Shown here: one piece after another, positions 11,501 to 58,207 of the stretch | Layout of the letters: the number at the start of each line of letters is the position of its first letter | How positions within the stretch are numbered: position 1 is the stretch's first letter | Source of the DNA: Aphrocallistes beatrix | Taxonomy: Eukaryota > Porifera > Hexactinellida > Sceptrulophora > Aphrocallistidae | Direction of reading: 5' to 3' | NCBI GenBank assembly: GCA_963281255.1 | Contig: OY725495.1 | Span: 3,658,001 to 3,722,000, forward strand | DNA length: 64,000 bases | Program-made: the position numbers and the translations under genes | The notes under the pieces: model-generated | Told to the model about the DNA's origin: nothing | Databases searched by the model: none | Seen by the model: the letters and a program-made list of their open reading frames with translations, nothing else

Positions 11501-13111
11501 CTAATAGATATTGATACAAAAATTACCTTCTGCAAATGCACACACTATCCTATTATCATTCGCCAGACAAATGCCTTGACAGTTCGACAATCTCTCTTTC
11601 GCGGATTGTTTCTTCCCGATCTCTTGGATCATCGTCCCATCACTCGAGTACACTTTCAGGGTTGATTCATAGAGAATGCTCAAGATAATCAAGCCTTCTT
11701 TGCTCACGCAAAAGTAATTGGGAATACTGCTGATTTCTTGTCCGAGAATGTCTGTGTTAATAATGGAGTCGAGGTGCTCTCCTTTCTTTGTGAAAGTATG
11801 TACGCATGAGGAAGCTTGTAAGTCTAGTACATACACAATACGCTCCATGGATACGTTGATATCTTGAGGTTTCTGTAAGACACCAAAGCCTATTGTCCTG
11901 TTCATCGTCATGTCATAGTTGAGGACGCATATTTGGTCATTATTCGTGTCCACTAAATAAATCTCATTGTTAGAGTCAATCATGATACTTTTAAGTGATT
12001 TTATCTTCCCAAACCGTTGCCCACGTTGGAAAATATGTGACCCTTCCACTTCAAAATCGCTTGTTCGGAAAGTGAAAATTCCATTTATTTTCTCATCAGT
12101 GACGTAGCATTTTCCGTAATGCACAGTGACACTTGATGGCCCTTCAAGTTGATCATTGCCAAATTCCGTGACGAATTTTCCTTTCAACGTAAAGACTAAA
12201 ACTTTGTGTTGATCTCTCGATACCACGTATATGGACTGCGTTATAGGCGCAAAGAATATTCCCCTAGGTTGCACCATCTGTCCTTTTTCAGTTCCTCTCC
12301 TACAGAAGGTTAGACTGGGCTTCTTTTTGCCTTCAAACGGAGTTGTAGGGTGTGTCTGCTTGGCAGGTGAGGCTGATGCTTTGAATGGATTCGAATCAAA
12401 CAGTGCGTGAAATGTGGGTTCTACCAGGTTTTGATCTGAAAATTCCCTGAAAGCATCTGGTTCTCTGGGAATTTCGTATTGAGACGTACTCCCTGATGAC
12501 TTTCTTCTCGGAGGAATCAGAGGTTTATTTTCAGGTACCTCTGCTGGTATAGTTACGTATGGATCTTGAGGCAACGCTTCGTAAGATATCTTAGGTCGGA
12601 ATGAAAGACGTTGTGGTTTGGGAGGGAGTGTGGGAGGTCTTTCAGGAATTTGTACTGGTTTATCATCCTGGCCAGTATGCATCACTTCATAATATATCCC
12701 CTCTTCACCATCTACCTTGATCTCTCCTAGGCCTTCAATCATTTCTATGACAGGTTTGATGTCGCACTGGAAATTGTGGTTTGGAATCGGGATTCTCTTC
12801 CTTAGCTCCTCCAGCTCCTCTGTAATGGTTTGAAGTTTGCCTTTTAGACGATGTGAAGCTTGATCGTCTTCAACGTCCATTACATCCAACTTCTCTTTCA
12901 TGCTTTCCAGTTCTCTAATATCTTTTAATCGTTTTTCCTTACTTTTAACGAATTTTATTTTGAAGTTGTTTAGTTCTGTTAACAAAAATTCTCTTCTTTC
13001 TGAGATACTTGATAACAAGGCCTCGAAACTTGTTCGAATCTCATTTTCAAGTTTCGAAAATATTTCTGAATAATTATCAAATTGATTTTGACTTAAAACA
13101 GCCATGTTCAT
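11501..13111 (-). CDS. Coiled-coil NHL-propeller protein, TRIM-like without RING/B-box (A)
   Basis: 536 residues in one exon. Residues about 10-108 form a coiled coil (ERREFLLTELNNFK, then LEELRKRIPIP), followed by FQCDI...IEGLGEI, which resembles the end of the TRIM coiled-coil module. RING and B-box are absent. Residues 140-220 are a linker with Y140/Y141 (YYEVM), Y177 (YEAL), Y185 (YVTI), Y212 (YEIP) and two SH3-ligand-like stretches (PPTLPPKPQR, 159-168; PLIPPRRK, 197-204). Residues about 268-536 are NHL-type beta-propeller repeats (QPRGIFF, IYVVSRDQHKVLVF, KPQDINV). The layout suggests a cytosolic scaffold rather than a ubiquitin ligase; that is inference. It is transcribed divergently from the neighbouring NHL gene. 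Confidence 0.85.
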   Translation of the reverse strand: MNMAVLSQNQFDNYSEIFSKLENEIRTSFEALLSSISERREFLLTELNNFKIKFVKSKEKRLKDIRELESMKEKLDVMDVEDDQASHRLKGKLQTITEELEELRKRIPIPNHNFQCDIKPVIEMIEGLGEIKVDGEEGIYYEVMHTGQDDKPVQIPERPPTLPPKPQRLSFRPKISYEALPQDPYVTIPAEVPENKPLIPPRRKSSGSTSQYEIPREPDAFREFSDQNLVEPTFHALFDSNPFKASASPAKQTHPTTPFEGKKKPSLTFCRRGTEKGQMVQPRGIFFAPITQSIYVVSRDQHKVLVFTLKGKFVTEFGNDQLEGPSSVTVHYGKCYVTDEKINGIFTFRTSDFEVEGSHIFQRGQRFGKIKSLKSIMIDSNNEIYLVDTNNDQICVLNYDMTMNRTIGFGVLQKPQDINVSMERIVYVLDLQASSCVHTFTKKGEHLDSIINTDILGQEISSIPNYFCVSKEGLIILSILYESTLKVYSSDGTMIQEIGKKQSAKERLSNCQGICLANDNRIVCAFAEGNFCINIY

Positions 13112-13251
13112 TATCTCTATATTAAATTACACCTTTATATCTATCCTTGAATACATACTTGCTTTTCATGTAAAAAGGCAGATAATTTATGGTAACTTTA
13201 TCTAGACTAGGCATAATGCATGTTTGAATTTAGGATTCATTGTTGAATGAA
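13112..13251. promoter_or_regulatory. Shared promoter region of divergent NHL genes
   Basis: Only 140 bases separate the two start codons, so both promoters must overlap or lie in the genes. On the minus strand ATATAAAG is present at about 13133-13140, some 25 bases before the A-gene ATG. Nothing else is decisive. Confidence 0.5.
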
Positions 13252-14574
13252 ATGGCGTCAAAATTTCTTTCTCCTCCAGAGAAATGCGATGAGACATTCC
13301 GTAAACTCGAGTCTACAATCTTTTCAGTTTTTAAGGAATTGATAGAAGATTTAGAGAAGCGAAGGGATGAACTCTTGGCGGAATTACTTCAACTCAAAAC
13401 GAACCTGGATATTTATATAACTCGTTCGCTAAAAAACATTCAGGAGTTAGAATCTGTTAAAAAGGGGATTGAATCGTTGGTAGTAGAAAGAAACGAAACA
13501 AATGCTGTAATCCAGGCCAGCCTTAACCCAATAATCAGCAAAATAAAAGAACTTGAGGAACAGATTCCATTGCCTAGTTTTACATTTGAGTGTGACATCA
13601 GCCCTCTTAAAGCTCAAATCGTTACTTTAGGTAAAATACAAAATGTTGAAACTTATGAAAAAATTGATCCCCACTATGAAATGGCTCCCTTGATCGAAGA
13701 CGTACCTCCTCCATTGCCGCCTCCAAGGTCAAGGTCTAGTATTAAATCTCAAAGTAAACTGAATTCGCCTACCCCAACCATTGACAAAAAATTACACTTG
13801 ACCGCTGTTTCTTGCTACGGAGACAAAAGCAATATTAGCAACCCAAAGGCAATATGCTATGACGAGTTCAACCGGAACATCTACGTTATATCCTATGACA
13901 ACCCAAGAATATTTGTCTTCTCCTCCAAAGGGAACCTAGTCACCAAATTTGGTAAGAAAGAACTTCAAGGACCAGTTGGTATTTGTGTGTCTGAAAATAC
14001 TTGTTTTGTTACTGATCAAAAGCTGAATGCGATATTCAAATACAAAACCAAAGACTTCCAACTGATAAAGAAGAGGATATTTACAAAGGGACCTGGTAAC
14101 AATCAGTTTGGATTGTTCCTAGGCATTGCTGTAGACCAATTTAACCAAATCCACTTAGTTGATAACGAGAATAATCGCATCAGTGTATACAACGGTGATC
14201 TCACCCTACACAGGATGTATGGACAAGACTACCTCCACCGTCCTAAAGATATCTGTATTTCTCAACTCATCTATGTCCTCGATTCAAGCTATCCTCACTG
14301 TCTGCACGGGATATCTTGGGATGGTAACAAGATCCTCTCTATAATAAGCCACGATGAGATCGACACTCCATTCTACTTCTGCCTCGATCCCGTTGGGGAC
14401 TTTGTCATTAGCGGGGTATTTGAGCCGGATTTGAAGATTTTCTCGGATTTAGGGACATATTTGTATTCAGCAGAAGTGAATGCACAGAAACCTCGAGGTC
14501 TATGCTTGTTAGAAGACACAGTAGCGTGTGCGTATGCGGAGGGAACGTACGTTGTGTACAATATTAAACTTTAA
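13252..14574 (+). CDS. Coiled-coil NHL-propeller protein, TRIM-like without RING/B-box (B)
   Basis: 440 residues, starting at the ATG at 13252 (MASKFLSPPE); an in-frame extension upstream has no ATG. Residues about 10-107 are a coiled coil (LEKRRDELLAEL, LEEQIPLP) followed by FECDISPL...LGKI, the same junction as in gene A. The linker has Y135 (YEKI), Y142 (YEMA) and the SH3-ligand-like PPPLPPPRSR (152-161). Residues about 180-440 carry NHL repeats (NPKAICYDEFNRNIYV, GPVGICVSENTCFVTD, HRPKDICISQLIYVLD). It is most similar to the partial gene at the right edge of the window. No RING, B-box or catalytic motif is present. Confidence 0.85.
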   Translation: MASKFLSPPEKCDETFRKLESTIFSVFKELIEDLEKRRDELLAELLQLKTNLDIYITRSLKNIQELESVKKGIESLVVERNETNAVIQASLNPIISKIKELEEQIPLPSFTFECDISPLKAQIVTLGKIQNVETYEKIDPHYEMAPLIEDVPPPLPPPRSRSSIKSQSKLNSPTPTIDKKLHLTAVSCYGDKSNISNPKAICYDEFNRNIYVISYDNPRIFVFSSKGNLVTKFGKKELQGPVGICVSENTCFVTDQKLNAIFKYKTKDFQLIKKRIFTKGPGNNQFGLFLGIAVDQFNQIHLVDNENNRISVYNGDLTLHRMYGQDYLHRPKDICISQLIYVLDSSYPHCLHGISWDGNKILSIISHDEIDTPFYFCLDPVGDFVISGVFEPDLKIFSDLGTYLYSAEVNAQKPRGLCLLEDTVACAYAEGTYVVYNIKL

Positions 14575-15361
14575 AGACAACCAAATTGTTAGTAGAATGT
14601 TTTGTTTAAGGACTTTGTTTTGTTTTTATTGGCTCCTTGAAATTTCTTTTTTTTTTTCTCCATTGCTGCATATATATCTCTATATTTTTTCATTTGTATA
14701 TATACACCTTTATAGCTATTATTTATATTTGTTTACAGTACATTATGATTCTTAATAGTGTTTAATAGCAGTATTCTATAACTATATGTGTTTCAAAATT
14801 GTTTATTTCACATAGCTGGTATTCTAGTTTTCTAAATTATTACTGTCAATCCAAATTAAGTCTTTAATATCTGCGATTTTTTGCGACAAAATCACACTAA
14901 GCGATTATAGAAAAGCAACTTTTACTTCACCCTTAATCCCGTTCGGATTTTAATGTCCCAACCGTTGAGATCTAATTGCTTCAATCACCTCTCATAATGG
15001 ATCTACAGAGTCGGGTTGCTACTCGCTCTGTTATAATATGGAAGGTACAATGCTTCTAATGCAGAGGACTGACTCTACTTGTGTACTGTCTCTTGAATTA
15101 GAATACATTCATAATTCCAGCATTTACACGTATAGAAATCTAGATTAATTAAATCATATTTACATTAGTTGTTTGAGACAATTGAATCCTTAAATTCGAT
15201 GCAAACATTGTTCTCTCATCGCCGCGTGTGTTAGTCCATTCACTTTGTCGGTATCAAACACTGAAGTAACCCTTTTAGATATTATAAATGAAATTTCCAT
15301 TAGAGTCAATTATCACATATTTTAAATATCTACACACATTTAAAATCTCATTTCAGCAAGG
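14575..15361. other. Intergenic stretch, no gene seen
   Basis: T-rich tract at 14645-14660, then plain AT-rich sequence. The bases before the peroxiredoxin ATG read CTCATTTCAG|CAAGG, a good 3' splice site, so a 5'-UTR exon probably lies somewhere here. Confidence 0.4.
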
Positions 15362-15976
15362 ATGGATTCTGTAAAATTCCCGAAAGCATTCGTTGGCAAG
15401 GAAGCTCCAGATTTCGCTGGAACAGCAGTGGTGAAAGGGCACTTCAAGAAGATTAAGCTACAGGACTACAAAGGCCGGTATCTTGTACTCTTCTTCTACC
15501 CTTTGGATTTCACTTTCGTTTGTCCGACAGAAATAATCGCATTCAGTGACCGAATAGAGCAATTTTACGCGGTTAATTGTGACGTAGTGGCTTGTTCAGT
15601 CGATTCTGAATTCAGCCATTTGGCGTGGACCAAAACGCCGAGAGATAAAGGGGGTCTCGGACCGATGAACATTCCAATCCTCTCCGACTTGACTAAATCC
15701 ATATCTCAGGCGTACGGGGTCCTGACAGACGAAGGAATGGCACTGCGAGGACTGTTCATTATCGACGGTAAAGGCATTCTAAGGCAGATCACCATTAACG
15801 ATATGCCGATAGGGAGATCCGTTGATGAGGTGATGAGACTGGTCAAGGCGCTGCAATTTACTGATAAGTTCGGAGAGGTTTGCCCGGCAAATTGGGAGCC
15901 AGGGTCTGAGACGATCGTGCCTGACCCTACCAAGAGTCAGAAGTTCTTCAATAAGATCAGTAAATCTCAAAAATAA
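15362..15976 (+). CDS. Typical 2-Cys peroxiredoxin (Prx1/2-type)
   Basis: 204 residues, full length for the family. It has the peroxidatic Cys54 in FTFVCPTE, the resolving Cys174 in GEVCPANW, the conserved R129 region and the GGLG motif (97-100) that makes eukaryotic Prx sensitive to hyperoxidation. It reduces H2O2 and alkyl hydroperoxides, with thioredoxin as the usual reductant, as an obligate dimer. No signal or mitochondrial targeting peptide is seen, so it is probably cytosolic. The C-terminal YF motif is FF here (F195-F196), a conservative change. The ATG at 15362 follows a strong splice acceptor, implying an untranslated first exon. Additional cysteines are C73 and C78. Confidence 0.95.
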
Positions 15977-16074
15977 AACTCTATTGTTAACTGTTGCTGC
16001 TGTTTCCTTTTTCACTTTTGTAATTTAGTTTTAGTTCACAATTATAAATTACTTTAAATGGTGCACTTATGCAT

Positions 16075-16193
16075 GCTTAAAACCCCAGGATGGCTTGGGT
16101 TTTTTCTATTTATAGTAAATACCCCGAATTTTTATGGCTTCCCCACACAAAATGGCTTAAACCGGAAATGACGCGACACATTCCAGGGGCAAC
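16075..16193 (+). repeat. Short dispersed repeat (AAAACCC family), copy 2
   Basis: Shares TATTTATAGTAAA, ATGGCTTCCCC and AAACCGGAAATGACG blocks with 30568-30705 and, inverted, with 1808-1960. The GACGCGACACA part also recalls the motif at 1-20. Confidence 0.5.
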
Positions 16194-16419
16194 GGAGTTA
16201 ATTAAAATATTTTTTTAATTAAGCATGCACATTTTATTTTATTTCAGGATGAATACACAATATCAGAGTGGTTCTTTCACGAATTATTCAGTCAGTGTAC
16301 AATTTGGACCAAACAAACTAAATATTTCAGCTTTTTGGGGTGTCTGGTGGCATTGTCAATGGGTCCGTCTACTTCGATATCACTGATTCATTACGGATGT
16401 AATGTTCTGGCAATTAAAT

Positions 16420-16631
16420 GGACATACATAATTTATGGAATGGAACGGAACCATTCCGGGAAATCAGAGTACCTAATTTACGGAACTTGACGAAACGGTT
16501 CCGGAATTTTAAATTATAAAGGCCTAATTACGGAACACTCCGTAAATTAGGCATTTACAATATCCGGAATAAAATATTCCGTAAAATAGGTATTTAAAAT
16601 TCCGGAACCGTTCCGTAAATTAGGTATGTCC
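16420..16631. mobile_element. MITE with long imperfect inverted ends and 9-bp TSD
   Basis: Left end GGACATACATAATTTATGG; right end, inverted, GGACATACCTAATTTACGG. Flanked by the exact 9-bp CAATTAAAT at 16411-16419 and 16632-16640. The interior is made of repeated direct and inverted CCTAATTTACGGAAC words, so the element can fold in several ways. The 9-bp duplication suggests a Mutator-like parent. Confidence 0.85.
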
Positions 16632-16903
16632 CAATTAAATGGTGTTTTTTGAAAACGATTTATTTTGTGGCTCCTATCTTTTGTGCCAAAATAATGACAT
16701 TTCAGGTTTTTTACCAAAATAGCACCATTTATTGCCAAAATTATAGCACATCCGTACAGGTTGAAGTAGTCTCTCTCTTTAGTTCCTCTTTTTACGTAAG
16801 CAGTTCTAAATTGAGATTAAATGCTCCAATAAATCCCTTTAGATTAATCAATTAAACTCGACTCAGCTAATAATTCCTATCAATAAATTAAATGATCTAA
16901 GTA

Positions 16904-18514
16904 ATGGCTAACTGGAATAAAATCTACCACAATGTCTACCAGGTTCACGACATGGAGCCCGCACGCGAGCGCCCGCGCATATTTTCCTTTTTCCCGCGGT
17001 CACGCGACTCCAGTCCCTCCCAGCGGCGCTCTCGCACGCCACATCGATCCCCGAGCAGCGTCTCAAACGGATGCGAGTTGGTCGAGACGAGATGTAGCAC
17101 TCCTCGCTTCTCAAACGATTCCTTGGCCGATCTGAAGGATACCAGCACGGATTTCAGTCCCTACAGTTCCAATTTCTCTCTGCCACCGGCGGCCACTCTC
17201 GGGAATCTCATCAAGGACAGTCATAGCCGCGTTTCCGGTGTGCAGCAGCAAATAACGCGGCTGGAACAGCAAGAAGTGAGGTGTCGAGATTTGGAGAGTA
17301 CGCTCTCTCAGCAAATCACCGCGCAATACGACACCTATATACAGCTGATAGTGGAGAGGAAGGAGCTGGCTTTGCGTCGTGTCCAGACCGTATACGCCCC
17401 CGTATTCGAGCAGATTTCAGGGTACTTAGGCCGTCTGAGAGATCTCTCACAGAGGCTTGAACGCTCCATCGGAGAAGCTACGCAGAGACGGAACATAGAC
17501 ATTCAAGTTGATTCCAGTTCCTATGAGTTACTCGATGTCAAAGGCGACCCGCTCACTCTCAAACTTGAAGAAATCCGCGAAAAGTTCTCCAACCTCCTCG
17601 AAGAAACTTCAAGCGACATGTTCGTTGCAATCCCTGAGGTAAGATTCAACATTGACAAAGACATCGCATTCCAGCTCAACTGTCTCGGACACGTGATAGT
17701 CGACGTGAACACCCCTCCAACGGACGACCCGCTGAAAGTGGACATGGGCATACAGTCCCCCTATGGGCTGGACATAGGAGCAGACGGGAAACTGAACGTA
17801 CTGGACTGGGAGACTAACACACTCTATCTGCTAGATCTTAACAACCCACAAAATGCCCACAAATGCTCGCTTGGACGTTCACTCCCGCGTAAGTCAGTCC
17901 ACAGCCTCATCGTATCTAGTACTGGGTACTACGTATCGTTTCCGAACAAAAACGCCGTCCGTCACGTAACTCTAGACTTGAAATGCAGCACTGAAGTTAG
18001 CGCGATCGATTGGTACGTCTTCTCACGTCCGCATGGTCTGGCACTGACAGAGAAGAGCAATGTCGTCATAGCAGATACTAATAGCAACCGAGTGTTGATA
18101 TGTACGCCTAGCCTTGACAAGGTGCTGTGTCAGATAAAGAGCAGCGAACAGGTGGAGGGACAGCTGTTACACCCGAGGGAGATAGCTGTCACACCCCGGC
18201 AAGATATCGTCGTGCTACACGAGGGCTACCCTTGCATATACATGTACTCACACAGCGGCGAGTTGAAGTACAAGTTTGGGAGTATAGGGTGTATGGCGAA
18301 AGAGTTAGATCGACCGCAAAGTGTATCTGTCTCAAGTGATGGAGACATATTCATCGGGAATGTTGGGTTTATCGGAGTGTACAGTTCTGATATGGTTTCG
18401 ATGCGGCGGGTTAAAAGAGAGGGAGTAGTGCAGCGAATTGCGGTTACAGGGGACAGAAGGGTGGTGTACAGGGGTAGTAGCAAGGATGGGATCATTATAG
18501 AGGCATTCAAATAG
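16904..18514 (+). CDS. NHL-propeller protein with basic Ser-rich N-terminus and coiled coil (C)
   Basis: 536 residues, single exon. Residues 22-60 are Arg/Ser/Pro-rich (SRDSSPSQRRSRTPHRSPSS), a likely phosphorylation region. Residues about 105-200 are helical/coiled coil (QQQITRLEQQEVRCRDLEST, ERKELALRRVQ). YELLD is at 207-211. Residues about 280-530 hold NHL repeats (SPYGLDIGADGKLNVLDWE, RPHGLALTEKSNVVIADTN, HPREIAVTPRQDIVVLHE, RPQSVSVSSDGDIFIGNVG). There is no RING or B-box. It is more diverged from genes A and B than they are from each other. Its first half and codon third positions are visibly more GC-rich than the surroundings. The start ATG at 16904 follows CTAAGTA. Function unknown; likely a scaffold. 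Confidence 0.85.
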   Translation: MANWNKIYHNVYQVHDMEPARERPRIFSFFPRSRDSSPSQRRSRTPHRSPSSVSNGCELVETRCSTPRFSNDSLADLKDTSTDFSPYSSNFSLPPAATLGNLIKDSHSRVSGVQQQITRLEQQEVRCRDLESTLSQQITAQYDTYIQLIVERKELALRRVQTVYAPVFEQISGYLGRLRDLSQRLERSIGEATQRRNIDIQVDSSSYELLDVKGDPLTLKLEEIREKFSNLLEETSSDMFVAIPEVRFNIDKDIAFQLNCLGHVIVDVNTPPTDDPLKVDMGIQSPYGLDIGADGKLNVLDWETNTLYLLDLNNPQNAHKCSLGRSLPRKSVHSLIVSSTGYYVSFPNKNAVRHVTLDLKCSTEVSAIDWYVFSRPHGLALTEKSNVVIADTNSNRVLICTPSLDKVLCQIKSSEQVEGQLLHPREIAVTPRQDIVVLHEGYPCIYMYSHSGELKYKFGSIGCMAKELDRPQSVSVSSDGDIFIGNVGFIGVYSSDMVSMRRVKREGVVQRIAVTGDRRVVYRGSSKDGIIIEAFK

Positions 18515-31000: not shown

Positions 31001-34000
31001 ATTGGAAATGTATACATTATAACCTAGAGTCATAATAAAAATTGTTGAGAACATAAATACAGTACGGTATCACATAATATTTACTAGAAACATATTCAAT
31101 GATGTGTTTTTTTTCTGTAGATACTAAAGGACAAGAATCAATTACATATGTATCAATTCAATTCATGCTTCATACTTGTATATTGTTATTCTTATATTGT
31201 TATTTTTAGCTATTATGTTATTATGTAAGCTATTATGTTCTTTTAAGAAGTTGAGTCCACAGATTATCCTAAAAATCTGTGGACTCAACTTCTTAAAAGA
31301 ACATAATAGCTTACTCTTCAATCTTTTATTTTACCAGTATATTAGTGATGGTTTTCTCTCTTATCTTTTAGTTTTGGAATATAAAAGTAAACAAGAGTGA
31401 AAGGGCGCGACTACTAAATTTATTTTGGATAAAATTAAGACAATTCACTTCTAATATAACTACATAGTAATTAATAACACTAAACACTAGACTATGAATT
31501 TTAACACTTACATATGTAGTTAACACTCATAAAAAAAGTACTTATTCGGAGTTATCTGTGCTTGAAACATCGAAAGTCTACTGTTTTAAACATTTTATGA
31601 AACCGGCAGTTATTTTCTAAGAGCGAAAGAAGATAGTTTTAGAAAATGGAGATTGTGATGCGATTGGATCATATTATTGGCAACACGACGAAACAGTTAG
31701 AACATGAGTTTAGTTTCAATTTAGAATTTGCTGCTACGTGGGGTGGATATAACAGCTATCACAAGCTATTTCTTTCAAGTCTTTCTAAATCTTGAAACTA
31801 ATCAATAGTAAAAGTAGGAACTAAGTGGTTGCCACATTAATATAAGACGAAAATGTCATGTTACCAAATTTATATACTTTCACATTCCTAGTTTCTCATA
31901 TAGCGTCTTACGATTGATGGGCACAATCGTTTTTAAAAAAAGTACTTAGTTGTAAGACATTGTTTATTATTGAATTTGCATATTGAAACTAATAATTGTT
32001 AACCAAACAACCTTTGATATTATATTTCCCAGGAAAAAAGTAAATTAACCAGAAAGTCTACTCTCTACTTTATGCACACGTTATATCTCCGCTCTAAGGA
32101 GTCTAAATTTAGCATAAACCTCATTGTTGATAGTTGTAAAAGCAAGTTTTGTCCCTTAATAATTACAGCGATACAGCTAGTATTTAACGTCAGTAAGTGA
32201 AAATAATGTAGATGCAATAATGTCTGGGATAATTTTAGAACTCGATGAGCCAAAGATTAATATAATATGGCTATCAAATGTAGTAAACTAAAAATGTTAA
32301 TGAGCTCTGCTTCCCACGCTATTAATTATACGCAACAGTCAGGTACACGTACATGCATTCTAATGGAGAAATTGCAATAAAGTTGTCATTAGTTATAATT
32401 GAGTCCCAATAGCCAATTGACTGGGTGACCTGATCTTGACAGGAGTGGCACTATTGGTCTATGGGGTGTGTGGATAGGTTTTGAGTCTTCCTGGATGGCA
32501 ATCGAAATTAATCGGGGAAAAATGTCCTCTGACCGATGTGACCCTATTAAGCGGAATCGATTGTATTACATTCCAGGTCATTAAAAGTTCATGCATCATC
32601 AAATTTCAATATACAGTCGACTCCGCTTAATAGGACCACATCAGTCAGATGACCTTTTTACCCAATTAAGCGAAGAACCCTACTAACCGAATATCTTCTG
32701 TATTAGTTTCTATGTGAGAACTATTCCGGTACTGCCAAAAGTGGTCCGATTAAGCGGAGTCGATCGTATTTGATTTTTGTAATGAGACAAATTGTCCCAT
32801 CTCTCTCAAACGATATCCTCTCAAGTTACAATAAATATTTGTAAATTACTAGTAGCCAATTTCTTTTTGGGATTATACGATTCTCTGAATTAGATAATTT
32901 ATATATTGAGTCTAAGCATTTCCCACTTTTTGAGAAAAATGTTAAGTCTCAATAAGAAATTGATGAGAACTTAAAAGCAACAAGAGATCCCATGAATGAA
33001 TGCTGAAACTATTAAATGATGTATTTGTAACAGAACTCAAACTCTGGTAGCAGGAAGAAATTCGATATACCTGTTGATAGTACAATTTATAGTGAAAGAA
33101 TTCCATTTTTATTCTAGTTATAACTTGATTTATAGAACTACTCTAATAATTATGAAAACTCTTTCTAGTGTATATTTTTAGTTAAAAAAAATGTTCTCAG
33201 CTTTTTTGGATCCTTCACACTCCTATAAATACGATCCATAAGAATGAAAAGTAAAACAAACAAACAAACAAACAAACAAACAAACAAACAAACAAACCAA
33301 CAGATAAATAAATGGAGTTTGCAACAACAGAAATGATTGAAATCGGAGATGTTAAGTACACAGTTGATAATATATGTGAGATGGCTATTCCCGATTTGAA
33401 TCAATTAATCTTCAATGCTAACGTGACTCAAACAAAGAGAATGGAAATTAAAAAGAGGAGGAAACACTACAAAATAACCAAAGCTTCCTTGAAGCAACAA
33501 ATTAACCGTTTGGGGGACGATTTGGATGAGTTGCACAAGGAGAAGATGGAATTGGAGAAAGAGAAGTTACAATACAAAAGAGAGATACTATTCTACACAA
33601 CACAACTCAGGCGTGCAAATACTAACTACTACGGATCCTATATCTGATCTTACTATATGGCAATCTCTCAACTTAAGAGCTAGCAAATTTGCTCTAAATG
33701 CCTGTTTCATATTCAGAAAAGTTAGCTTGCTTGCTTATAAAGTATATACGTATTAATATTATTATATTGCTTTTTGAAAATATATGAAATGATGCAGCAT
33801 TCTACAAACTCTTTTAACTATAATTAGAAAATAATTTTAACACATCAATGTCAAATCATTCTCTACTATATGTATATATGGTCTCCCAATACAGAATGAA
33901 TTCAGTTTGTTGTTATTATTATTACAAGTGCGCTTCGCTTGCTTGCGCTGCGCGGCTGGCGGATACAAAGTGTCCGCCGGAGGCGCCCTGCGGGCGCCTG

Positions 34001-37000
34001 GGATCACATTGATTAATTATAGCGGGGATAACATCTCGAAATACGTCTGTCCTACTGTTATAATCGATATCGCATGAAAAATAACCAAATAATTTTTTAA
34101 ATTTTGATGCGTAATGATGGCGTTATAACAGAGTGATGAGTCATCATCATTTTTTGATGATGGTTATATCATATGTGAGGTATAATAATATACACATTCT
34201 ATTAAAATTTCAGCCTTCTATCACCTAAAATGACTGAGTTATAATCGAAAAACTGAAATTCCTAATAATAAAAAAGGTGACAATGACGTCATAACTCGAC
34301 TTAGTGGAGCCATAGCCAAAAGACTCCCACATGCCAAAAATCAGCGTTTTAATAGTAAGGATTATTATTATTACAAGCGCACTTCACGCATTGCGTACCG
34401 CGGCTAGCAACACTTCGTGTTAGCAGAGGCGCCCTGGGGATTTTAACAAAAGATTCATGGGCGCCTAATAATTATTATTTTCACTAAATCATAGATGAAT
34501 AGATTAGATTTAAAATGAAGGAGGATGGCAGTGACGTCATCACCAATGATAATTATCATTAGTGGTTTATGCTGGTACATGAAGTGGAGAATAGTTATAC
34601 ACTTGTGATTCAAATTTTAAACTTATGTCACGTATAATGTATTAGTTATGAAAAACTGAAATTTCTGCTAATAAAGGTGATAAATGACGTTATAATCCGT
34701 GATGAGTTGACAGTTTCGACGAGATTCTCGAGCCATTGATAAAATGCTGCGGTGTGCTTAAATTCGGCTTTCTGCGACTGTCAGTTTCTTTGATCAATTC
34801 CGTACGGAGAAAAAACTTATTCGTATTTATACACATTGCCGTCAGAAGCTCATAAAAAGTGGTAAAGGCTATTTTAATTATGTTAATCAAAAGTGGTGGT
34901 CTCGAATAGTAGCAAAGTGATTATTAATTTTGGCCCCATTCCCCACCTGAAGAAAAAGTTATATTTCACGTTTTTAAGATATTTTTTCAATGAATATAAC
35001 CACACGAGTGATTCAAGAAATAGTAGGAGGGAAGGATTTACCGTTAATCTTTATTCTAAGGAGTAACAAAAATATTTGCTTCCTTATGCGGGCGATTATT
35101 CGAGTACACACGATATTATATGGATATAAATCCAGTTTTAATAAAATAAATGTATAGCTCTGTACGGAATTGATTGAAGAAACTGCCAGCAGCAAAAAGT
35201 TTTTTGGCATACCGGAGTATTTAGTTACTAGCTCGTGCAAGTTCGAGTCTCAGACGAAAATGTCTACTCATCACATTGAATTATGGCGTCACTATCACCT
35301 TTCCTTCATTTTGAATTATAAACTATGCATCCATGATTAGTGAAACTAATCGAGTACACGTAGCATAGGGTAGAGCAGCTCAGGGCAGCTCTTCGGAAAC
35401 GCAGTTTTCGCTAGCCTCACTACTCAAGTGCGGAAAGCGCACTTGCGTAGACTTTATATCCATTCCAGCTTACTCATTTTAAATATTTGTAATTACTAGG
35501 AGAGTAGCCAATTTCTTTTTGGGATTATACGATTCTCTGAATTAGTAAATTTATATTTAGTCCAAAGCAATTCCACCTTTTCGGAGAAAATTCTTAGAGT
35601 TTCAATAAGAAATTGATGAGAACTTAAAACCAATAAGAAATTGCTGAGAACTTGGAAGTACCAAGAGATCCCACGAAATGAATGTGTTGAAACTGATTTT
35701 AAATGATGTATCTGTAACATAACTCTAACTCTCCATTATAATGGTAGCAGGAAGAAATTCGATATACTTGTCGATAGTACAACTAAATATAGATTCAAAG
35801 TGAAAGAATTCTGTTTTTATTCTAGTTAGAACTTGATTAATAAAACTAATCTAATAATCTCTCTGTAGCCTTTATTTTGCTCAAAAAAATGTTCTCAGCT
35901 TTTTCAGTCTTCAACTCATATAAATATGTTCCACAAGATTGAAAATTAAGAAAAACAAACAAACAAACAACTAAATACATAGATAAATAAATGGAGTTTG
36001 CAACAACAGAAATGATCGAGATCGGAGATGTTAAGTACACAGTTGATAATATATGTGAGATGGCTATTCCCGATTTGAATCAATTATTATTTAATGCCAA
36101 CGTGACTCAACAAAAAAAGTTTGAAATAAAAACCAGAAGAAAACACTACAAAATAACCAAAGCTTCCCTGAAGCAACAAATTAACCGTTTGGGGGACGAT
36201 TTGGATGAGTTGCACAAGGAGAAGATGGAATTGGAGAAAGAGAAGTTACAATACAAAAGAGAGATACTATTCTACACAACACAACTCAGGCGTGCAAATA
36301 CTAACTACTACGGATCCTATATCTGATCTTACTATATGGCAATCTCTCAACTTAAGAGCTAGCAAATTTGCTATAAATACCTCAGTTTCATATTCAGAAA
36401 AGTTAGCTTGCTTGCTTATAAATTCTATATTAATATTATTATATTGCTTTTTGAAATATGAAATGATGCAGCATTCTACAAACTCTTTTAACTTTATTAG
36501 AAAATAATTAATGTTTCTATCTGAAACATCAAAGCGATGCAATACAGTATTTGAAATAAATTCTAGCAAAGAAGGAAACAAGATTTGGTACTTATGGAAA
36601 AAGGGAAGACTGGCTAGTACATTTAAGGGAAATGCAGGATATTTCCGGTGATTAATGTCCTTCGAAAGCAATTATATATAAATGGATTAAGTGAGTTGAT
36701 AATAGCGATGAGGATCTCTATGCCTATGTCGTACGACTAGCGACTTCCTCAAAAATCCACATTAATATTGAGAGGTTCAAACAATTTTGGAGGACAGAAG
36801 ACTACCCTGCGAGCGTTAGAAGAGAAGATAGGCATATCAAATCCATTCTGCACTCGATTATCAATGAAGATCTGGAGGTGTAGAAGGTAACTGCACGCTG
36901 GGTCCCAAAACTTTCAAAATAATAAATGCGCGAAAGGGTCAGAGTTAGCAAAGAATTATTGTCAAGTATAGAGGCTCCACTTCAACCATCAAGAATTGAC

Positions 37001-40000
37001 AAGAATGTTCAATATGAGTATGAGTGCTGAACGAATTAATGCCGCGTTTTGGGGATGGGGATCCCCAAAACGCGATTACACTGGAAAAAAGGAAAATTCT
37101 TACTAAATTAAGTGAAGCTAAGGGGTTCTAGGTACCTCCCATTCGCTTACTAAATGGCCAACTGGTTATTAGAGAAATAGGTTAACTGGAGAGGTGTGGG
37201 CTCTTCTAAGAACTAACTTCATATCTTTAGCATAGCAAACAATGGAAGAAATAGATATACAGTCAGGTTCGCTTATTATGAACCCGCTTAATATGAACAT
37301 TCGTTTATTATGAACTAACTCTCTGGTCCCAATTCAACAGGTTCCATAGGATTTGTATTAGATCTCGAGTTCGCTTAATATGAAGTATCTCTATTATGAA
37401 CAGACTTTTTGGTCCCCAAGGTGTTCATAATAAGCGATCCTGACTGTACCTCACACTGAAATTTGTCTTTCCGGGTAGTGTCCATTTTCAATACACTGGC
37501 ACCACCCCTGGGATAAGCTAACATGAAATATTATATTAATAACTTTCCCTTCAACAAATTTATTACGTACTTCAAGATAACCAAATCATTTTATATCTCA
37601 AGGTAGATATTCCATTGTGAATGTGACTACCTCATCACACGTGCACTGAAACAAACGAGATACAAACATGAGATGATAGAAGTTCAAATTTTGTAATCGT
37701 GTATGACAAAATGGATTATTGGGCAAATCAGGTCCTGATCGCTGGGTTCGGGACATTGCTTAGTAGGGCGTGCGCGTCCTTTGTATTATAGGATTATCCA
37801 TCTTGGGTGGGCTTTAGTAAATCGGGGTGGGAACGTGTTCCCAAAATGGGCCCATAATAAACTTTGCACCTGTTTCCATCTAAACAAGATCTACTCTTCG
37901 ATTCTCAAACTGCGGTAAGCTGATAATTCAATCTTAAGTAACTGAACTAAACACAAAAAGGAAGGAAAACCTATGTTATCTATTCAATAAATACTAATCA
38001 TAAATTCCAATAGTATCATTCAGTTAATTAAGATTACTATAATCAACTTATAATACGGTCTCCATTGGGATAACAGTTTCGATAACAAACTATAGTAGTT
38101 AGTAAATATTAAAACCAATTCAGCAAATTAGAGGAAATATAATTTTATAATAACTAAGCAAGCAATATATATTAATAATTTAGATAGAACTTATACTATA
38201 TAGCTAAGTTGAAATTGCCTTAATAGTATGATTATATATAGGATCAGTAGTAGTTAGTATTTGCACGTCTGAGTTGTGTTGTGTAGAATAATATCTCTCT
38301 TTTGTATTGTAACTTCTCTTTCTCCAATTCCATCTTCTCCTTGTGCAACTCATCCAAATCGTCCTCCAAACGGTTAATTTGCTGCTTCAAGGAAGCTTTG
38401 GTTATTTTGTAGTGTTTCCTCCTCTTTTTAATTTCCATTCTCTTTGTTTGAGTCACGTTAGCATTGAAGATTAATTGATTCAAATCGGGAATAGCCATCT
38501 CACATATATTATCAACTGTGTACTTAACATCTCCGATTTCAATCATTTCTGGTGCAAACTCCATTTGAATTGAGTATTATAATTATTTTTTTTACTGAGA
38601 TGATATTGGTACTTATTTATACAATATTCATATCAAAATAGCTTAGACCGCTTTTTTTCAAACACACAGAGTAAATAGTACCAGTAAATAAAAAGTAATT
38701 TCTATTATCACCAATACCAAGAAATATGGATTATTAATAGCCAGACTCAATTCATAGTGAAACTGATAGCTTCCCAATCTCTTCATACAAATACATAGAA
38801 AGATATTGTACTTTGCTATCACAAGGCTATAAAGCTATTATTGCTGCCTTATTTACATACGCATACATTTCATGTTCCTTGAATTGAGAATAAAATAAGA
38901 TTAATGCTTCTTACTGAAAATATGTGGTCTCTTTTCGGAAATGTATGAAATCCCAAAATGGTGACCCGAACAATCGAATGAGTAATAATATGAAAACCAG
39001 TTGTACTCAACAAAACTTTCTTGGACAAAATATGTTAGTTTATTAAAGTTCATAAATGAGGTTAAAGAGTACTGAACTCACATCCAAATGTGGTTAGCAT
39101 TTTAATGCATTTTGGTTTAAGACAAATAACAGCGAAGCACTCGTAATCCATAAACTTTCATTCCATTACCGAGTGTGAATAATCAAAACTTGCTGACCTG
39201 TGACATCATACATCATCTAGTTTGCAGATGTTTCGAAATACATGGATGGAAAGGACGAATTCATTATACAATTATAAATTCCCATAATTCAACATACATT
39301 ACCAATACTGCTTTGCTACTCTATATGCCTTTGTTAATTAGGGTTGGAGTAAGAATTTTGTTAAATAATTTCAAGTCATTTTAGGCTGTGACCTCATAAA
39401 AATGTAGGGTATTTATCTACTGTAATAGAACGCTAGTCAAATTTCGGATATCGAATATACCATCACACGTACTAACAATTATTAAATACGCGTATTGCAG
39501 TTGAATACAAAGTTTAGATAACTAACCTTGATACCCTTCGTCGTGGTTCCTTCATCAAAATCCTTTTTGATTTGGAGCCCAAGGTCTGTCTGTATTTGAG
39601 TAACACTAATCAGAGATATTTAATAAACACCACACTCGTACTTATTCACTTATTCATTTGGCTAAATTATATCTCAATCAGTGGTGTAGGGACAACACCT
39701 ATCTGGGGGGTCTGGAAGGTATAGACTTGTTTGCAAATGATAAAATAAATGCAATATTTGTCACAAAATTTAGCAAATTATCGGTTCCGCCTGGCCTACA
39801 AAAATCATAATCTCCCCTTGCCCCCTCGTGCCTATGCAGAGGCGTAGCCAGCCCAATTTTTAGGGTGCGGCAATTCCGTGAGAGGGTTGCGGCCTAGGCC
39901 CCATGTGCCGCACCCTGGCTACGCCTCTGTGCCTATGCCAATGCTAATAATGATTATGAAATGTTTTATCATACAAAAAAAAGTTATAATCGGAAGATAT

Positions 40001-53743: not shown

Positions 53744-56700
53744 ATGAGCAAACAGACAAGTATCGAAACTGCTTCCAACAATGAAAACTTTGTGGAAGAT
53801 AGCTTTTCGTTGGACACTTCGAACTGGAAAGTGGACAACCTCAAACTAAACAAGAGTCTCCTACACTCTTCAATGGGACACGTGCAAGTCCACCGATTGC
53901 TTAGAATGATGTTGAGCATCATATGCTGTATACTCTACATCGTACAGACCTGGATTCCACCCTCCATTTCCTCGTCCCCACAATACTGTTGTGGGGTTGC
54001 ACAGTACACGGGACAACCTTGTGTGTTGGAGAACTACAATAACGGAACAGTTGGATGGGAAATGAGAAGAAGTGGTTGCATATTCGCGAACAAAATTATC
54101 GTCATAGGAAAGGATGCAAACTCAGAATTCTCAATCGAAAACACGACTAATGGGCAATTCTCCACCCGAGTTAACAGCAAGATCTGCAAACCATACTGTC
54201 AATCAGGTGACAACTGTAGCCAGGCTATACGCCGTACTTGTCCATGTCCAATTGAGTGTGGAGATGTCTTGTACTGTGGAATGGTAGAGAGAGCGGAATG
54301 CGAAGGGTTAGACTACTGGAAACTTGTATTTTACAGAAAACCACTCTGGCTCTACATTCTTCAAGTAACCACGTTGCTACTGGCTGTAGCTTACACTTTA
54401 ACGCGCGGGCTGCTCCTATGGAGGGGTGGGTTGAGACTGACGAAAATCATCGATAGGTACTTCATCATCGATTGCGCAACCGGGATAATTTCTCTTCTGA
54501 CATTAGCGTATGCGCCTTGCCTAAAGGACCTGTACATTCCACTGTTCTTACAGTGTTTCACTGCCTGGGTCATTATCAATAACATCCTCTACAGCTTCGA
54601 TGTCACGCATTCTCAAAATAAATTCATTACCCCTGTAATCCAATCCATAACAGCTGTTCTATTGCAACTCGCCTCCATACTGTTCGCCTCGATTTGTTTC
54701 ATCCATTATCTAGAACGAATAGCATGCCCTGAGGACTCGCACGTTACAACGTTATTGGACAGTTTTTGGTTCGTTGTGGTGACAATAACAACTGTAGGGT
54801 ATGGGGACAAGTCTCCAGGGACACCTTTAGGCCAGATAGCAGTTATCTTCCTCATCTTGATCATCCTGCTGTTTCTACCGAAAAAGCTAAGCGATATCCT
54901 CGAACTGCTCGATGACTCGAAACAGGATTATAAATTTTACAATGGACAAGATCGGAATAAGCATGTCGTGCTATGTGTCACCAAACTGGACATGACCCTC
55001 ATTAACGATTACCTCGACGAATTCTATTCACAGGAAGCAAGCACGTCGTTAGTGACTGTAGTGCTCACGGCACAATCACCCCCGCCTCTGGTTAAAATCA
55101 GACTGAACAGTCCACTCTGGAAGAAGAAAGTACTCGTCATTGTCGGCTCGGCGTTGAAACAAAGAGATTTGGAACGCGTGAAACTTGAACTAGCAAAAGC
55201 TTGCATACTTCTCTCAGATCGAATGACAGAAGATGCCCAATTCTCAGACCAGGAAACGATATTACGCGCATCTTCAATACAACGCGTTGCCCCGCACGTG
55301 AAGCTATACGTACACATAATTAAGCCTGAGAATCGAATAAACGTAAGGTTTGCCGACCAGACCATCTGCGAGGGTCAATTAAAACAGGTGATAATGGCGA
55401 ATAACTGTATCTACCCAGGCTTCTCCTCTTTCCTAACACTCCTGCTACACACCACTTCGCCTGAAAAGGGAAAAGCTAAAAAAGACTGGCAACAAAAGTA
55501 TGACTACTGTTCCGGAAATGAGATCTATGATATAAAGCTTAAGGATAGCTTAGTGTTCGGTAGTTTGGCAGGCAAAAACTTCTTGTTTGCATCTGTTGTC
55601 ATTTTAAGGCTCACTGACGTGTTACTTTTCGCAGTTAAACCTGCGAATAAAACAGACATCCTGTTAAACCCGGGTCGCCATCATCTCCTAAGTGGTGAGG
55701 ACACTCTGTATTATATCTCGCAAGACAGAGAGAAAGATATCTTCGTTGATAAAAACAAAACCAAGAAAGAAATTGAGAGGCTGGTTGAGGTTTGTTCACA
55801 GGGGGAAACCAAAAATGAGATTGAAGAGATAAGAAAAGTGTCAATGGATGAACCTGAGTTCGGTAAAGGAGTTGAGAGAAAGGAAAATTGTAATCCAAAT
55901 TTAGACATGCCGATATTTCTATTGAATAAAGAGGGTGCTAGCGATGATGATCAAGCACTTGACAGCAAAATTCAGGCGAGAGAGAAGAGAAACAGTTTTA
56001 AAAAGCAGATCGCATCGTCGCCAATCAGTGAACCAGGATATCCCGCTGAAGTAAGTACAGCGGATATAGACGAACATAAGAAGCCTCCGATGAAAAAAAC
56101 CGCTACAATTTCATATTCATTCAACCAGCACAGTTCAGAGAAAGAAAAGAGACAAAGAAGCGTACATACTCAAATTTCAGTTTTGATAGGGGATACAAAC
56201 CAAAAAAGTGAACTACGAGGATTAAATAGCGAAGCAACTGGGGATCAACAAGAATTTTTAGAACATATGTACAAGCAGTCATCGGACTCAACATTCCTTT
56301 CTGTCCTTCCAGTTCCAACTTACTTTGGCGTGAAGGAAAGCGTTCGACATCTCAAGAAAGAACTTCCATCCTTATGCTGCCTACAAGCCGGCTGGAAGAT
56401 CACATGTCATGAACCCGACTTGAAAATAAGTGCGGTCAAGAGTATTCAACAGCCAGAAGAGGTGATAGAAAGGTCGCTCTATTTAACACGGTTCAAACGG
56501 CCTTTAATCGTATGCGCAAACGAAGCAGGTTCCCAGTTATACGAGTTTCTGCTCCCATTACGAGATTACCATATCCAAACAGAAGACTTAATTCCAATTG
56601 TCCTGTTATTACCCACCATCCCTGACGTACCATTCCTGGAAGCCATTGCTTGGATACCGTACATTAAGTTCATTGTAGGAAACCAGGAGTGTGTAGACGA

Positions 56701-58207
56701 CCTCCTGATAGCGGGAGCACTCGATGCATTTGGGATAATCATCTGTCTGGGAGATGGAATGCCTGAGCTTAAAGAAGAGAGTCAAATGGTGGATGCAAGC
56801 CGTATCAGCACAGCACAAAAGTTATCCCAGATATTCATCAATACAAAGTTCTACGTTGAGCTAACAGAACGTTGGAGCATGAGGTACCTGATCTTGCAGG
56901 GAGGCTGTACATTCCACCCTCTAATGCCGAAAAACATCCGAGACTTTATACACACACCCTACTTCATGTCTAGTCAAGCTTTCGCCCCTTCAATGATGGA
57001 CACTCTCCTCTACCAGTGCACTCAAAAGGACTACATCGTTGAGTTAGTAGGACTCCTTCTAGGGCTGCAACAGACAGCAGGATCCGGGTACATTGGGAAG
57101 GTCGAGATCACACAAGGTGATATTGATAAATATAAGACCTACGGACGTCTAATGCTAAAACTCGCCAGTGTACAAAATGATCTCCCAGTGGCCATCTACC
57201 GTACTCGCATGGTCAAACTCCAGAATTCTCATAAGGGGGTTAATCATGAATATGCACAGACGAAAAAATTCCTTGAAAAAAGAGCGGCACATTTCGGTAT
57301 CCGAGATCCCATCCCAAATATCTCAGCAAAGGTAGAGCATAGCCATATCCTCGTGAATCCTCCTACAGATACGCCCCTCAAGAAGAAAGATGTAATCTTA
57401 GTTTTAAAAGTATGCTCACCGGAACAGTACGCAATCATTCACCAATGCGTTTCTCCAACATTGAATTCATTCCTAAACCCACCGATTTGGGATGATGATA
57501 GAACGACAACCGATGATGAAAGTGATGATGGCCGTTTGAAACCAAAAGGAATTTCAAATTTTAAAAGAAAATTCTCATTGAGAACCAGTCAAACAAATGT
57601 GTCAGAAGTTGACACAAGTAATACTTCGAAAAATATATTTTCTAAACTGAATAATCGCAAACGCAACTCAATCGATTTAACTGAGGTCAGACAGAAAGAA
57701 AATCAATCTAAAAGTTTCGACAATTATTTGTTTGATAAATCAGAAAAAATTAAAATGGAAGAAACAAGACAAACTTCTGCAGATTTTGAACGGAAACGCT
57801 ACGGAAATGAGTTTCTCACTAGCAGCACCAACTCAAGCGATAACGAAGGAGCGGACCTGATAGAGGCATCAGGTGTGGCGAATCCGGAAGTAGAAGATAC
57901 AAGTAAGAGCCAGCAAAAAATGGTCATGATACACGCTGGCAAAAAGATGAATAAGAGAACGATAAAGAAAAAAGCGCCTATTTCCAAACCAGCTCCTCCC
58001 AAACACTTTGGCATATCTGGATTATTCCTAAACAAAGGCCATTCAGCGCCTAAACGTGCCCGCGGTAGAGGCAGACATGCAGCACCACGTGGTAGAGGCA
58101 AACAGAGAATCGGATACCCCATCAGCCCCATTGACACACCTACTTTACCCATACCCGGATGTGATGCTAAGAATGAGGGAGATGGAACAGATGCAACCAA
58201 CTTTTAA
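53744..58207 (+). CDS. Slo2/KCNT-type K+ channel with Cys-rich ectodomain
   Basis: 1487 residues in one exon. S1 about 52-71; S2 about 200-225; S3-S4 about 240-287 (S4 without the regular Arg ladder, as in Slo2); S5 about 300-323; pore with TVGYGD (350-355); S6 about 364-384. RCK1 follows (KHVVLCV, LWKKKVLVIVGSALKQRDLE, QTILRA, LYVHIIKPENRINVRFADQ), then the Slo2-typical CSGNEIYDIKLKDS and LLNPGRHHLLSGEDTLYYI, a charged linker (about 680-840), RCK2 (about 850-1270) and a basic tail with RARGRGRHAAPRGRGKQR. Slo2 channels are Na+- or Cl--activated K+ channels of the plasma membrane. The S1-S2 loop is about 130 residues with 12 cysteines (82 to 186) and N-glycosylation sequons at N100, N133 and N157; known Slo2 loops are far shorter. 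TATA box upstream. Confidence 0.93.
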   Translation: MSKQTSIETASNNENFVEDSFSLDTSNWKVDNLKLNKSLLHSSMGHVQVHRLLRMMLSIICCILYIVQTWIPPSISSSPQYCCGVAQYTGQPCVLENYNNGTVGWEMRRSGCIFANKIIVIGKDANSEFSIENTTNGQFSTRVNSKICKPYCQSGDNCSQAIRRTCPCPIECGDVLYCGMVERAECEGLDYWKLVFYRKPLWLYILQVTTLLLAVAYTLTRGLLLWRGGLRLTKIIDRYFIIDCATGIISLLTLAYAPCLKDLYIPLFLQCFTAWVIINNILYSFDVTHSQNKFITPVIQSITAVLLQLASILFASICFIHYLERIACPEDSHVTTLLDSFWFVVVTITTVGYGDKSPGTPLGQIAVIFLILIILLFLPKKLSDILELLDDSKQDYKFYNGQDRNKHVVLCVTKLDMTLINDYLDEFYSQEASTSLVTVVLTAQSPPPLVKIRLNSPLWKKKVLVIVGSALKQRDLERVKLELAKACILLSDRMTEDAQFSDQETILRASSIQRVAPHVKLYVHIIKPENRINVRFADQTICEGQLKQVIMANNCIYPGFSSFLTLLLHTTSPEKGKAKKDWQQKYDYCSGNEIYDIKLKDSLVFGSLAGKNFLFASVVILRLTDVLLFAVKPANKTDILLNPGRHHLLSGEDTLYYISQDREKDIFVDKNKTKKEIERLVEVCSQGETKNEIEEIRKVSMDEPEFGKGVERKENCNPNLDMPIFLLNKEGASDDDQALDSKIQAREKRNSFKKQIASSPISEPGYPAEVSTADIDEHKKPPMKKTATISYSFNQHSSEKEKRQRSVHTQISVLIGDTNQKSELRGLNSEATGDQQEFLEHMYKQSSDSTFLSVLPVPTYFGVKESVRHLKKELPSLCCLQAGWKITCHEPDLKISAVKSIQQPEEVIERSLYLTRFKRPLIVCANEAGSQLYEFLLPLRDYHIQTEDLIPIVLLLPTIPDVPFLEAIAWIPYIKFIVGNQECVDDLLIAGALDAFGIIICLGDGMPELKEESQMVDASRISTAQKLSQIFINTKFYVELTERWSMRYLILQGGCTFHPLMPKNIRDFIHTPYFMSSQAFAPSMMDTLLYQCTQKDYIVELVGLLLGLQQTAGSGYIGKVEITQGDIDKYKTYGRLMLKLASVQNDLPVAIYRTRMVKLQNSHKGVNHEYAQTKKFLEKRAAHFGIRDPIPNISAKVEHSHILVNPPTDTPLKKKDVILVLKVCSPEQYAIIHQCVSPTLNSFLNPPIWDDDRTTTDDESDDGRLKPKGISNFKRKFSLRTSQTNVSEVDTSNTSKNIFSKLNNRKRNSIDLTEVRQKENQSKSFDNYLFDKSEKIKMEETRQTSADFERKRYGNEFLTSSTNSSDNEGADLIEASGVANPEVEDTSKSQQKMVMIHAGKKMNKRTIKKKAPISKPAPPKHFGISGLFLNKGHSAPKRARGRGRHAAPRGRGKQRIGYPISPIDTPTLPIPGCDAKNEGDGTDATNF

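Follow-up and report, generated by a model that had tools for sequence, protein, structure and literature searches.

Id proteins are helix-loop-helix proteins without a basic region. Among basic leucine zipper (bZIP) proteins, the basic region is unusual in HBZ of human T-cell leukaemia virus type 1 (HTLV-1), and Drosophila has small bZIPs (SisA/Mabiki type) that evolve fast and whose basic region is atypical. Here we describe three nearly identical genes of the glass sponge Aphrocallistes beatrix, termed the trio, which may be likened to the Drosophila factors and whose proteins keep a zipper of the Maf/CNC type and have lost the residues used for reading DNA. They are located in a stretch of 64,000 nucleotides (assembly GCA_963281255.1, contig OY725495.1, positions 3,658,001 to 3,722,000 of the forward strand), the whole of which is referred to as the window. 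In formal logic the trio proteins would resemble Id proteins, as dimerisers without DNA reading. The two folds are unrelated, however, and whereas Id proteins have no basic segment, the trio keeps one with a net charge of +9 over 22 residues. HBZ pairs with small Mafs, as is proposed below for the trio, but it is viral, and its heterodimers with small Mafs bind Maf recognition elements (MAREs) and activate transcription (PMC6623464, in excerpt).

Across 896 bZIPs surveyed in 49 eukaryotic genomes, the signature Asn and Arg of the basic region were almost invariant and differed in only three groups: Giardia has Gly for Asn, a few plants have Lys for Arg and oomycetes have Cys for Asn (PMC4736632, in excerpt). 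The survey may be biased to canonical members. For the animal ancestor at least 12 bZIPs were deduced, and two or more Maf genes are stated for every eumetazoan (PMC4736632). In MafG, Asn61 and Tyr64 sit at the recognised base, and the Tyr marks the small Mafs, the CNC factors having Ala at this place (PMC9756947, in excerpt). The trio resembles the small Mafs (MafF/G/K) in being short, with little space for a separate activation domain, and in having a Maf-type N-terminal segment, the RR pair and the zipper. Unlike in MafG, the places of Asn61 and Tyr64 are taken by Ile and Ala, the signature Arg is Gln or Ile, and the phase of the zipper is off by one to two residues. With the CNC factors (Nrf2, BACH1, SKN-1) the trio shares the Ala at the Tyr64 place, but it has no long N-terminal region and has lost the N..AA..CR basic motif.

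The initial annotation had described the three proteins as small-Maf-like and zipper-only. To score the trio, a family profile was built from 77 distinct small relatives of the same genome, the trio being excluded. This profile aligned residues 17-100 with 45.6-46.7 bits (E 3.8e-13 to 8.4e-13 among 3003 sequences), bearing out the kinship with the Maf group. The Pfam model bZIP_Maf (PF03131) aligned residues 17-97 with E values of 4.8e-4 to 7.3e-4; the scores of 20.5-21 bits lie 1 to 1.5 bits below the gathering cut-off of 22 bits. When copy 1 alone was compared with the chains of the PDB, the top match was an unrelated coiled-coil chimera of myosin (E 0.025), and the best bZIP chain was Nrf2, with a weak match (E 0.43). 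A profile of 40 members including the trio found MafG (E 2.8e-14), MafB, Nrf2, BACH1 and MafA, and each of these 40 members matches bZIP_Maf with an E value of at most 0.01. When copy 1 was shuffled 3000 times, the highest score with the family profile was 13.0 bits, by which chance coiled-coil similarity is ruled out.

The kinship with the small Mafs in particular is doubtful, since the Tyr that marks Mafs is Ala as in CNC factors; because the defining residues proved to be absent when tested, classing the trio as a small Maf is not warranted. Scores against subprofiles were about 46 bits for the Tyr-type (47 rows), about 34 bits for the canonical-Asn type (18 rows) and 23-25 bits for Mafs only (4 rows), and do not decide between a Maf and a CNC origin because the row numbers are unequal. 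In a tree the trio joins the relative C11:739118 with a support of 93; both have long branches and the columns are few, and this placement was not relied on. The trio is a diverged Maf/CNC-group derivative, and it may work like an Id protein.

The genome-wide search placed the trio, first taken for a private family, among many relatives. With bZIP_Maf, at least 109 matches were found in the assembly, 93 of them above the cut-off; some ordinary bZIPs and a single match with a stop are counted in this number, and it is a lower bound because the search omitted the three copies of the window itself. Of the 109 matches, 99 lie in open frames no longer than 200 aa, and 108 are without a stop. The bZIP_1 model gave 20 matches at E 0.01, 16 of which are at bZIP_Maf places. 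On sequence grounds, the trio belongs to a very large radiation, specific to the lineage, of short bZIPs that derive from Maf/CNC factors and apparently lack introns. The matches are found on contigs C1, C7, C8, C11, C13, C15 and others, mostly as single-frame mini-genes and many of them clustered; near-identical tandem copies are present on C8 near 2.87 Mb and on C15 near 2.6 Mb.

We read 85 of the 109 domains. Four proteins encoded on contig C18 (255-365 aa) have an intact Maf motif, NR(G/H/V)YA..CR, 16 proteins of 125-179 aa keep Asn and Arg, most of them in the CNC-like form N..AA..R, and many proteins of about 90-175 aa have an altered motif. Three of the 85 are exact duplicates, leaving 82 distinct domains. 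The signature Asn is kept in 25 of these and absent from 57, while Arg is kept in 60 and absent from 22; both residues are present in 21 domains, Arg alone in 39, Asn alone in 4 and neither in 18. On a tree calculated without the motif columns, a minimum of 5 changes for Asn and 13 for Arg is required, with the direction not given; the trees, from which three truncated rows were left out, are based on few columns and leave many forks unresolved, so that these counts are rough. Among 57 representatives, the Arg five residues before the Asn place (Asn-5) is conserved most strongly (56/57), followed by the zipper leucines and one glutamate at a g position (48/57). Conservation is moderate for Arg (41/57) and Tyr (33/57) and weak at the Asn place. 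Between the Maf genes of the C18 cluster lies a single frame of 1268 aa with Cys-rich repeats (L026, 3784-7590).

The glass sponge genomes that have been published are small, with many single-exon genes, and for A. vastus an expansion of single-exon AIG1 genes and tandem expansions were described (PMC10282587, in excerpt). In the open-licence literature on bZIP/Maf expansions or lost basic regions, no such bZIP/Maf radiation was found in the titles and the beginnings of abstracts of the papers listed. The A. vastus paper mentions bZIP twice, once for an up-regulated factor of unknown function and once in a methods line, and contains Maf solely within MAFFT; the main text on O. minuta has no word beginning with bZIP or Maf (PMC10280926). 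Because one genome contains members graded from canonical to doubly lost, the family amounts to a natural experiment on the parts that a bZIP can do without, and it can be tested directly how the residues of the basic region relate to the choice of DNA and of partner.

At the place of the Maf motif NRGYAASCR, the family profile aligned ITKASLKQQ, as had been annotated, with Ile55 at the Asn place, Ala58 at the Tyr place, and Ser59, Gln62 and Gln63 at the others; MAFFT sets an extra residue inside the motif (ITKAS-KQQI). Ala58 stands at the place of MafG Tyr64 in both alignments, and in either of them one of the five specificity places is kept. The trio lacks the DNA-reading signature N-x7-R, having Ile at Asn and Gln or Ile at Arg, and of the CNC-type N..AA..CR the first Ala alone is left. 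The loss of the DNA-contact residues was thus confirmed. It is shared by others in the family: among the 79 other rows, 15 have at most one of the five specificity residues (the trio motif being taken from the family profile).

The spacing between the basic region and the zipper is also changed. From the Asn place to L74 there are 19 residues in the trio, or 20 with the alternative anchor, compared to 18 in canonical bZIPs. Scored by the same rule as its relatives, the trio has a phase of +1 and departs from the fixed phase, whereas this rule puts 76 of the 82 relatives in phase; it favours 18 in near ties, which decided 13 of the 82. In a continuous helix, a shift by one residue rotates the basic face by about 100 degrees. 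The zipper itself was found as annotated, with leucine heptads at L67, L74 and L81; L74, L81, E84 and E91 are near-invariant across the 40 aligned members, and R50, the Arg at Asn-5, is invariant in them, trio included. Heptads were assigned by hand with a register score of 9, and Lys occupies two a positions in the trio (K78, K85). AlphaFold, with an input of three near-identical sequences that is too shallow for judging the N-terminal (EHR) fold, predicted a single helix from 18 to 108 with a predicted template modelling score of 0.41; the prediction is best over the zipper, with a mean predicted local distance difference test value of 93-97 in blocks of residues 61-100. The term zipper-only was too strong, because the Maf/CNC-like N-terminal segment and the charge of the basic segment remain.

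A comparison of copies 1 and 2 shows 11 synonymous and 8 non-synonymous changes, corresponding to a synonymous divergence (dS) of 0.204, a non-synonymous divergence (dN) of 0.030 and a dN/dS of about 0.15 (Fisher p 9e-5). The ratio is not near 1, so that the initial proposal of a functional family is not refuted at this point. Within a diverged tract of 21 codons, 8 of 11 synonymous sites are changed, which is nearly saturated, against 8 of 52 non-synonymous sites (p 3.6e-4), and codons 54-111 show one synonymous change. This pattern suggests old copies under constraint that were partly homogenised by gene conversion. Between copies 1 and 3 we found 3 synonymous and 2 non-synonymous changes in addition to length changes. 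In the family, 45 pairs with at least 60% identity were compared, pairs of the trio being kept apart. The median dN/dS was 0.22, with no value above 1, over the 26 pairs with a finite dS above 0.05, which are non-independent within clusters; outside this median are 8 saturated pairs and 11 with dS of at most 0.05. Four of these 11 very recent pairs have dN above dS, three of them with 1 vs 0 changes and one with 5 vs 1.

A TATA box is present 30-150 bases upstream of the ATG in 56 of 64 members, trio included, where shuffles lead to an expectation of 16.0 and a downstream control gave 13 of 62. The count covers those of 88 items that have at least 200 bases upstream, a Met and at most 200 aa; paralogues are non-independent, and the shuffle kept single-base composition only. 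Of the 9 other genes in the window, 4 also have a TATA box upstream. By these sequence-based measures, the trio are real genes under purifying selection as proteins.

We propose, with a probability of roughly 0.45, that the trio proteins are attenuating heterodimer partners of Maf/CNC factors. With the reading residues lost and the phase between basic region and zipper broken, the proteins would be unable to read a specific DNA half-site. According to the coupling rules, Lys at a positions disfavours homodimers; because of K78 and K85, the trio proteins are expected to pair poorly with themselves and to prefer the Maf or CNC-type bZIPs of the genome. Possible partners are the four Mafs of contig C18 with their intact motif and the CNC-like members with N..AA..R. 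Such a heterodimer would bind Maf elements weakly or not at all, and the trio genes would in consequence act as dosage-dependent attenuators of Maf/CNC transcription. If they prove to be decoys, Id would have a counterpart among animal bZIPs, on a scale that the papers covered here do not describe. A wider version of this proposal is rather unlikely: about a hundred Maf/CNC mini-genes, with Asn mostly missing and Arg lost many times, would form a dimerisation code, in which a sizeable share of them, including the trio, regulates a few DNA-binding factors by pairing alone.

Several observations weigh against attenuation by pairing. The net charge of residues 47-68 equals the family median, and since the basic segment is still strongly basic, the trio could contact DNA within a heterodimer. 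The moderate conservation of Arg and Tyr among the representatives suggests that many relatives bind DNA. In the family, the two a positions often have Lys or Arg (45/71 and 37/71), so that no particular partner is proven by the Lys residues of the trio. Binding of MAREs by HBZ-small Maf dimers means that an odd basic region alone does not make a decoy. The constraint on the degenerate motif itself is not measurable, because copies 1 and 2 are nearly identical there, probably due to conversion.

The main rival explanation is that the trio proteins are diverged transcription factors which read DNA with a new specificity in heterodimers and are no decoys; we consider this possible, though on balance somewhat doubtful. 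In the family, Asn is often replaced by Met, Ser or Val, yet the flanking Arg, Lys and Tyr are kept, and Arg is found in 60 of the 82 relatives although Asn is found in only 25; the trio would be an extreme version of this. The near-universal Arg at Asn-5, present in the trio as R50, and the positive charge of the basic segment fit this explanation as well. In line with it, HBZ-small Maf dimers bind MAREs (PMC6623464), and the oomycete bZIPs with Cys for Asn appear functional (PMC4736632). Against it, the trio has lost the Arg too, has Gln at the Ser/Cys place and is shifted in phase. Alternatively, the trio could have left transcription and serve as a coiled coil in another role, for example as a cytoplasmic or nucleic-acid-nonspecific adaptor. 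The long branch of the trio agrees with such a role, as does the conservation of the family, which peaks at the RR pair, the zipper leucines and the glutamate and is lower where Asn, Arg and Tyr would stand; we regard it as improbable, given that the basic charge and the Maf/CNC-like segment, which is ancillary to DNA binding, were kept. That the trio are decaying or neutral copies (pseudogenes), as the loss of near-universal residues, the tandem setting and the few very recent family pairs with an excess of non-synonymous divergence might indicate, is very improbable because of the purifying selection, seen in dN well below dS and in the diverged tract, and the TATA boxes in all three copies, whose frames are moreover intact.

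At the locus, the annotated arrangement of three intact, nearly identical frames with a direct 1-kb duplication and an inverted copy was recovered; the coordinates are given in the table. The genes are apparently intronless, as read from the single open frame of each. Copy 3 has one N-terminal codon fewer than the other copies and lacks the last residues. Its inverted match (33310-33675 with 38566-38205; arms 97% complementary) shares little beyond the coding sequence. Copy 3 may have arisen by retroposition, the homology being about as long as the coding sequence; gene conversion explains this equally well. In a DNA-level search of the 100.5-Mb assembly, the trio were the sole copies found. 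Near the copies lie short elements with terminal inverted repeats (32611-32769, 82% complementary; 37258-37448, 96% complementary), which by eye look like small non-autonomous DNA transposons, and an inverted repeat whose arms of 41 bases match perfectly around a spacer of 8 bases (31225-31314) is situated 2 kb upstream of copy 1.

Table. Features of the trio locus (positions in the window; EHR, extended homology region)
Feature	Position	Strand	Description
Copy 1	33312..33647	+	Intact open reading frame, 111 aa, mini-Maf-like protein
Copy 2	35991..36326	+	Intact open reading frame, 111 aa; protein 95% identical
Copy 3	38244..38564	-	Intact open reading frame, 106 aa, inverted
Direct duplication unit 1	32832..33836	+	Pairs with 35480-36509; about 1 kb
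Direct duplication unit 2	35480..36509	+	Pairs with 32832-33836
Place of Maf EHR / CNC motif (IPDLNQL...)	33360..33449	+	Copy 1 residues 17-46; from family profile and Pfam
Degenerate basic segment	33450..33509	+	Copy 1 residues 47-66; Ile55 at the Asn place; at the Arg place Gln63 by the family profile, Ile64 by MAFFT
Leucine zipper	33510..33608	+	Copy 1 residues 67-99; d positions L67, L74, L81, Y88, Y95; a positions L71, K78, K85, I92
Diverged tract, copy 1 vs copy 2	33408..33470	+	21 codons (33-53) with 8 synonymous and 8 non-synonymous changes
TATA box of copy 1	33224..33231	+	TATAAATA, 88 bp upstream of ATG
TATA box of copy 2	35919..35926	+	72 bp upstream of ATG
TATA box of copy 3	38614..38621	-	57 bp upstream of ATG

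By eye, the window contains animal-type genes, several of them in a single long frame. Among these are several NHL/TRIM-like genes (11501-18514 and 63073-63906), each in one long frame, and a single frame for a potassium-channel-like protein of 1487 aa that resembles Slo2/KCNT (53744-58207). A search of the assembly for Wnt was empty, but no positive-control genome gave a signal, so that the result agrees with a glass sponge and is no proof of one; O. minuta is described as being without Wnt (PMC10280926, in excerpt).

Glass sponges have a distinct mitochondrial code (PMC10695373, in excerpt). In the mitochondrial COX1 gene on contig C28 (L095), TGA is read as Trp. In the stretch of COX1 aligned with the best PDB chain, 15 AGA codons were found at 6 Ser, 4 Ala, 3 Gly, 1 Asn and 1 Lys and at no Arg, and 7 of 9 CGN codons were found at Arg. 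AGR codons stand for Gly in tunicates and for Ser in glass sponges and invertebrate bilaterians. In COX1, AGR is not Arg; Ser fits best, and Gly is less likely.

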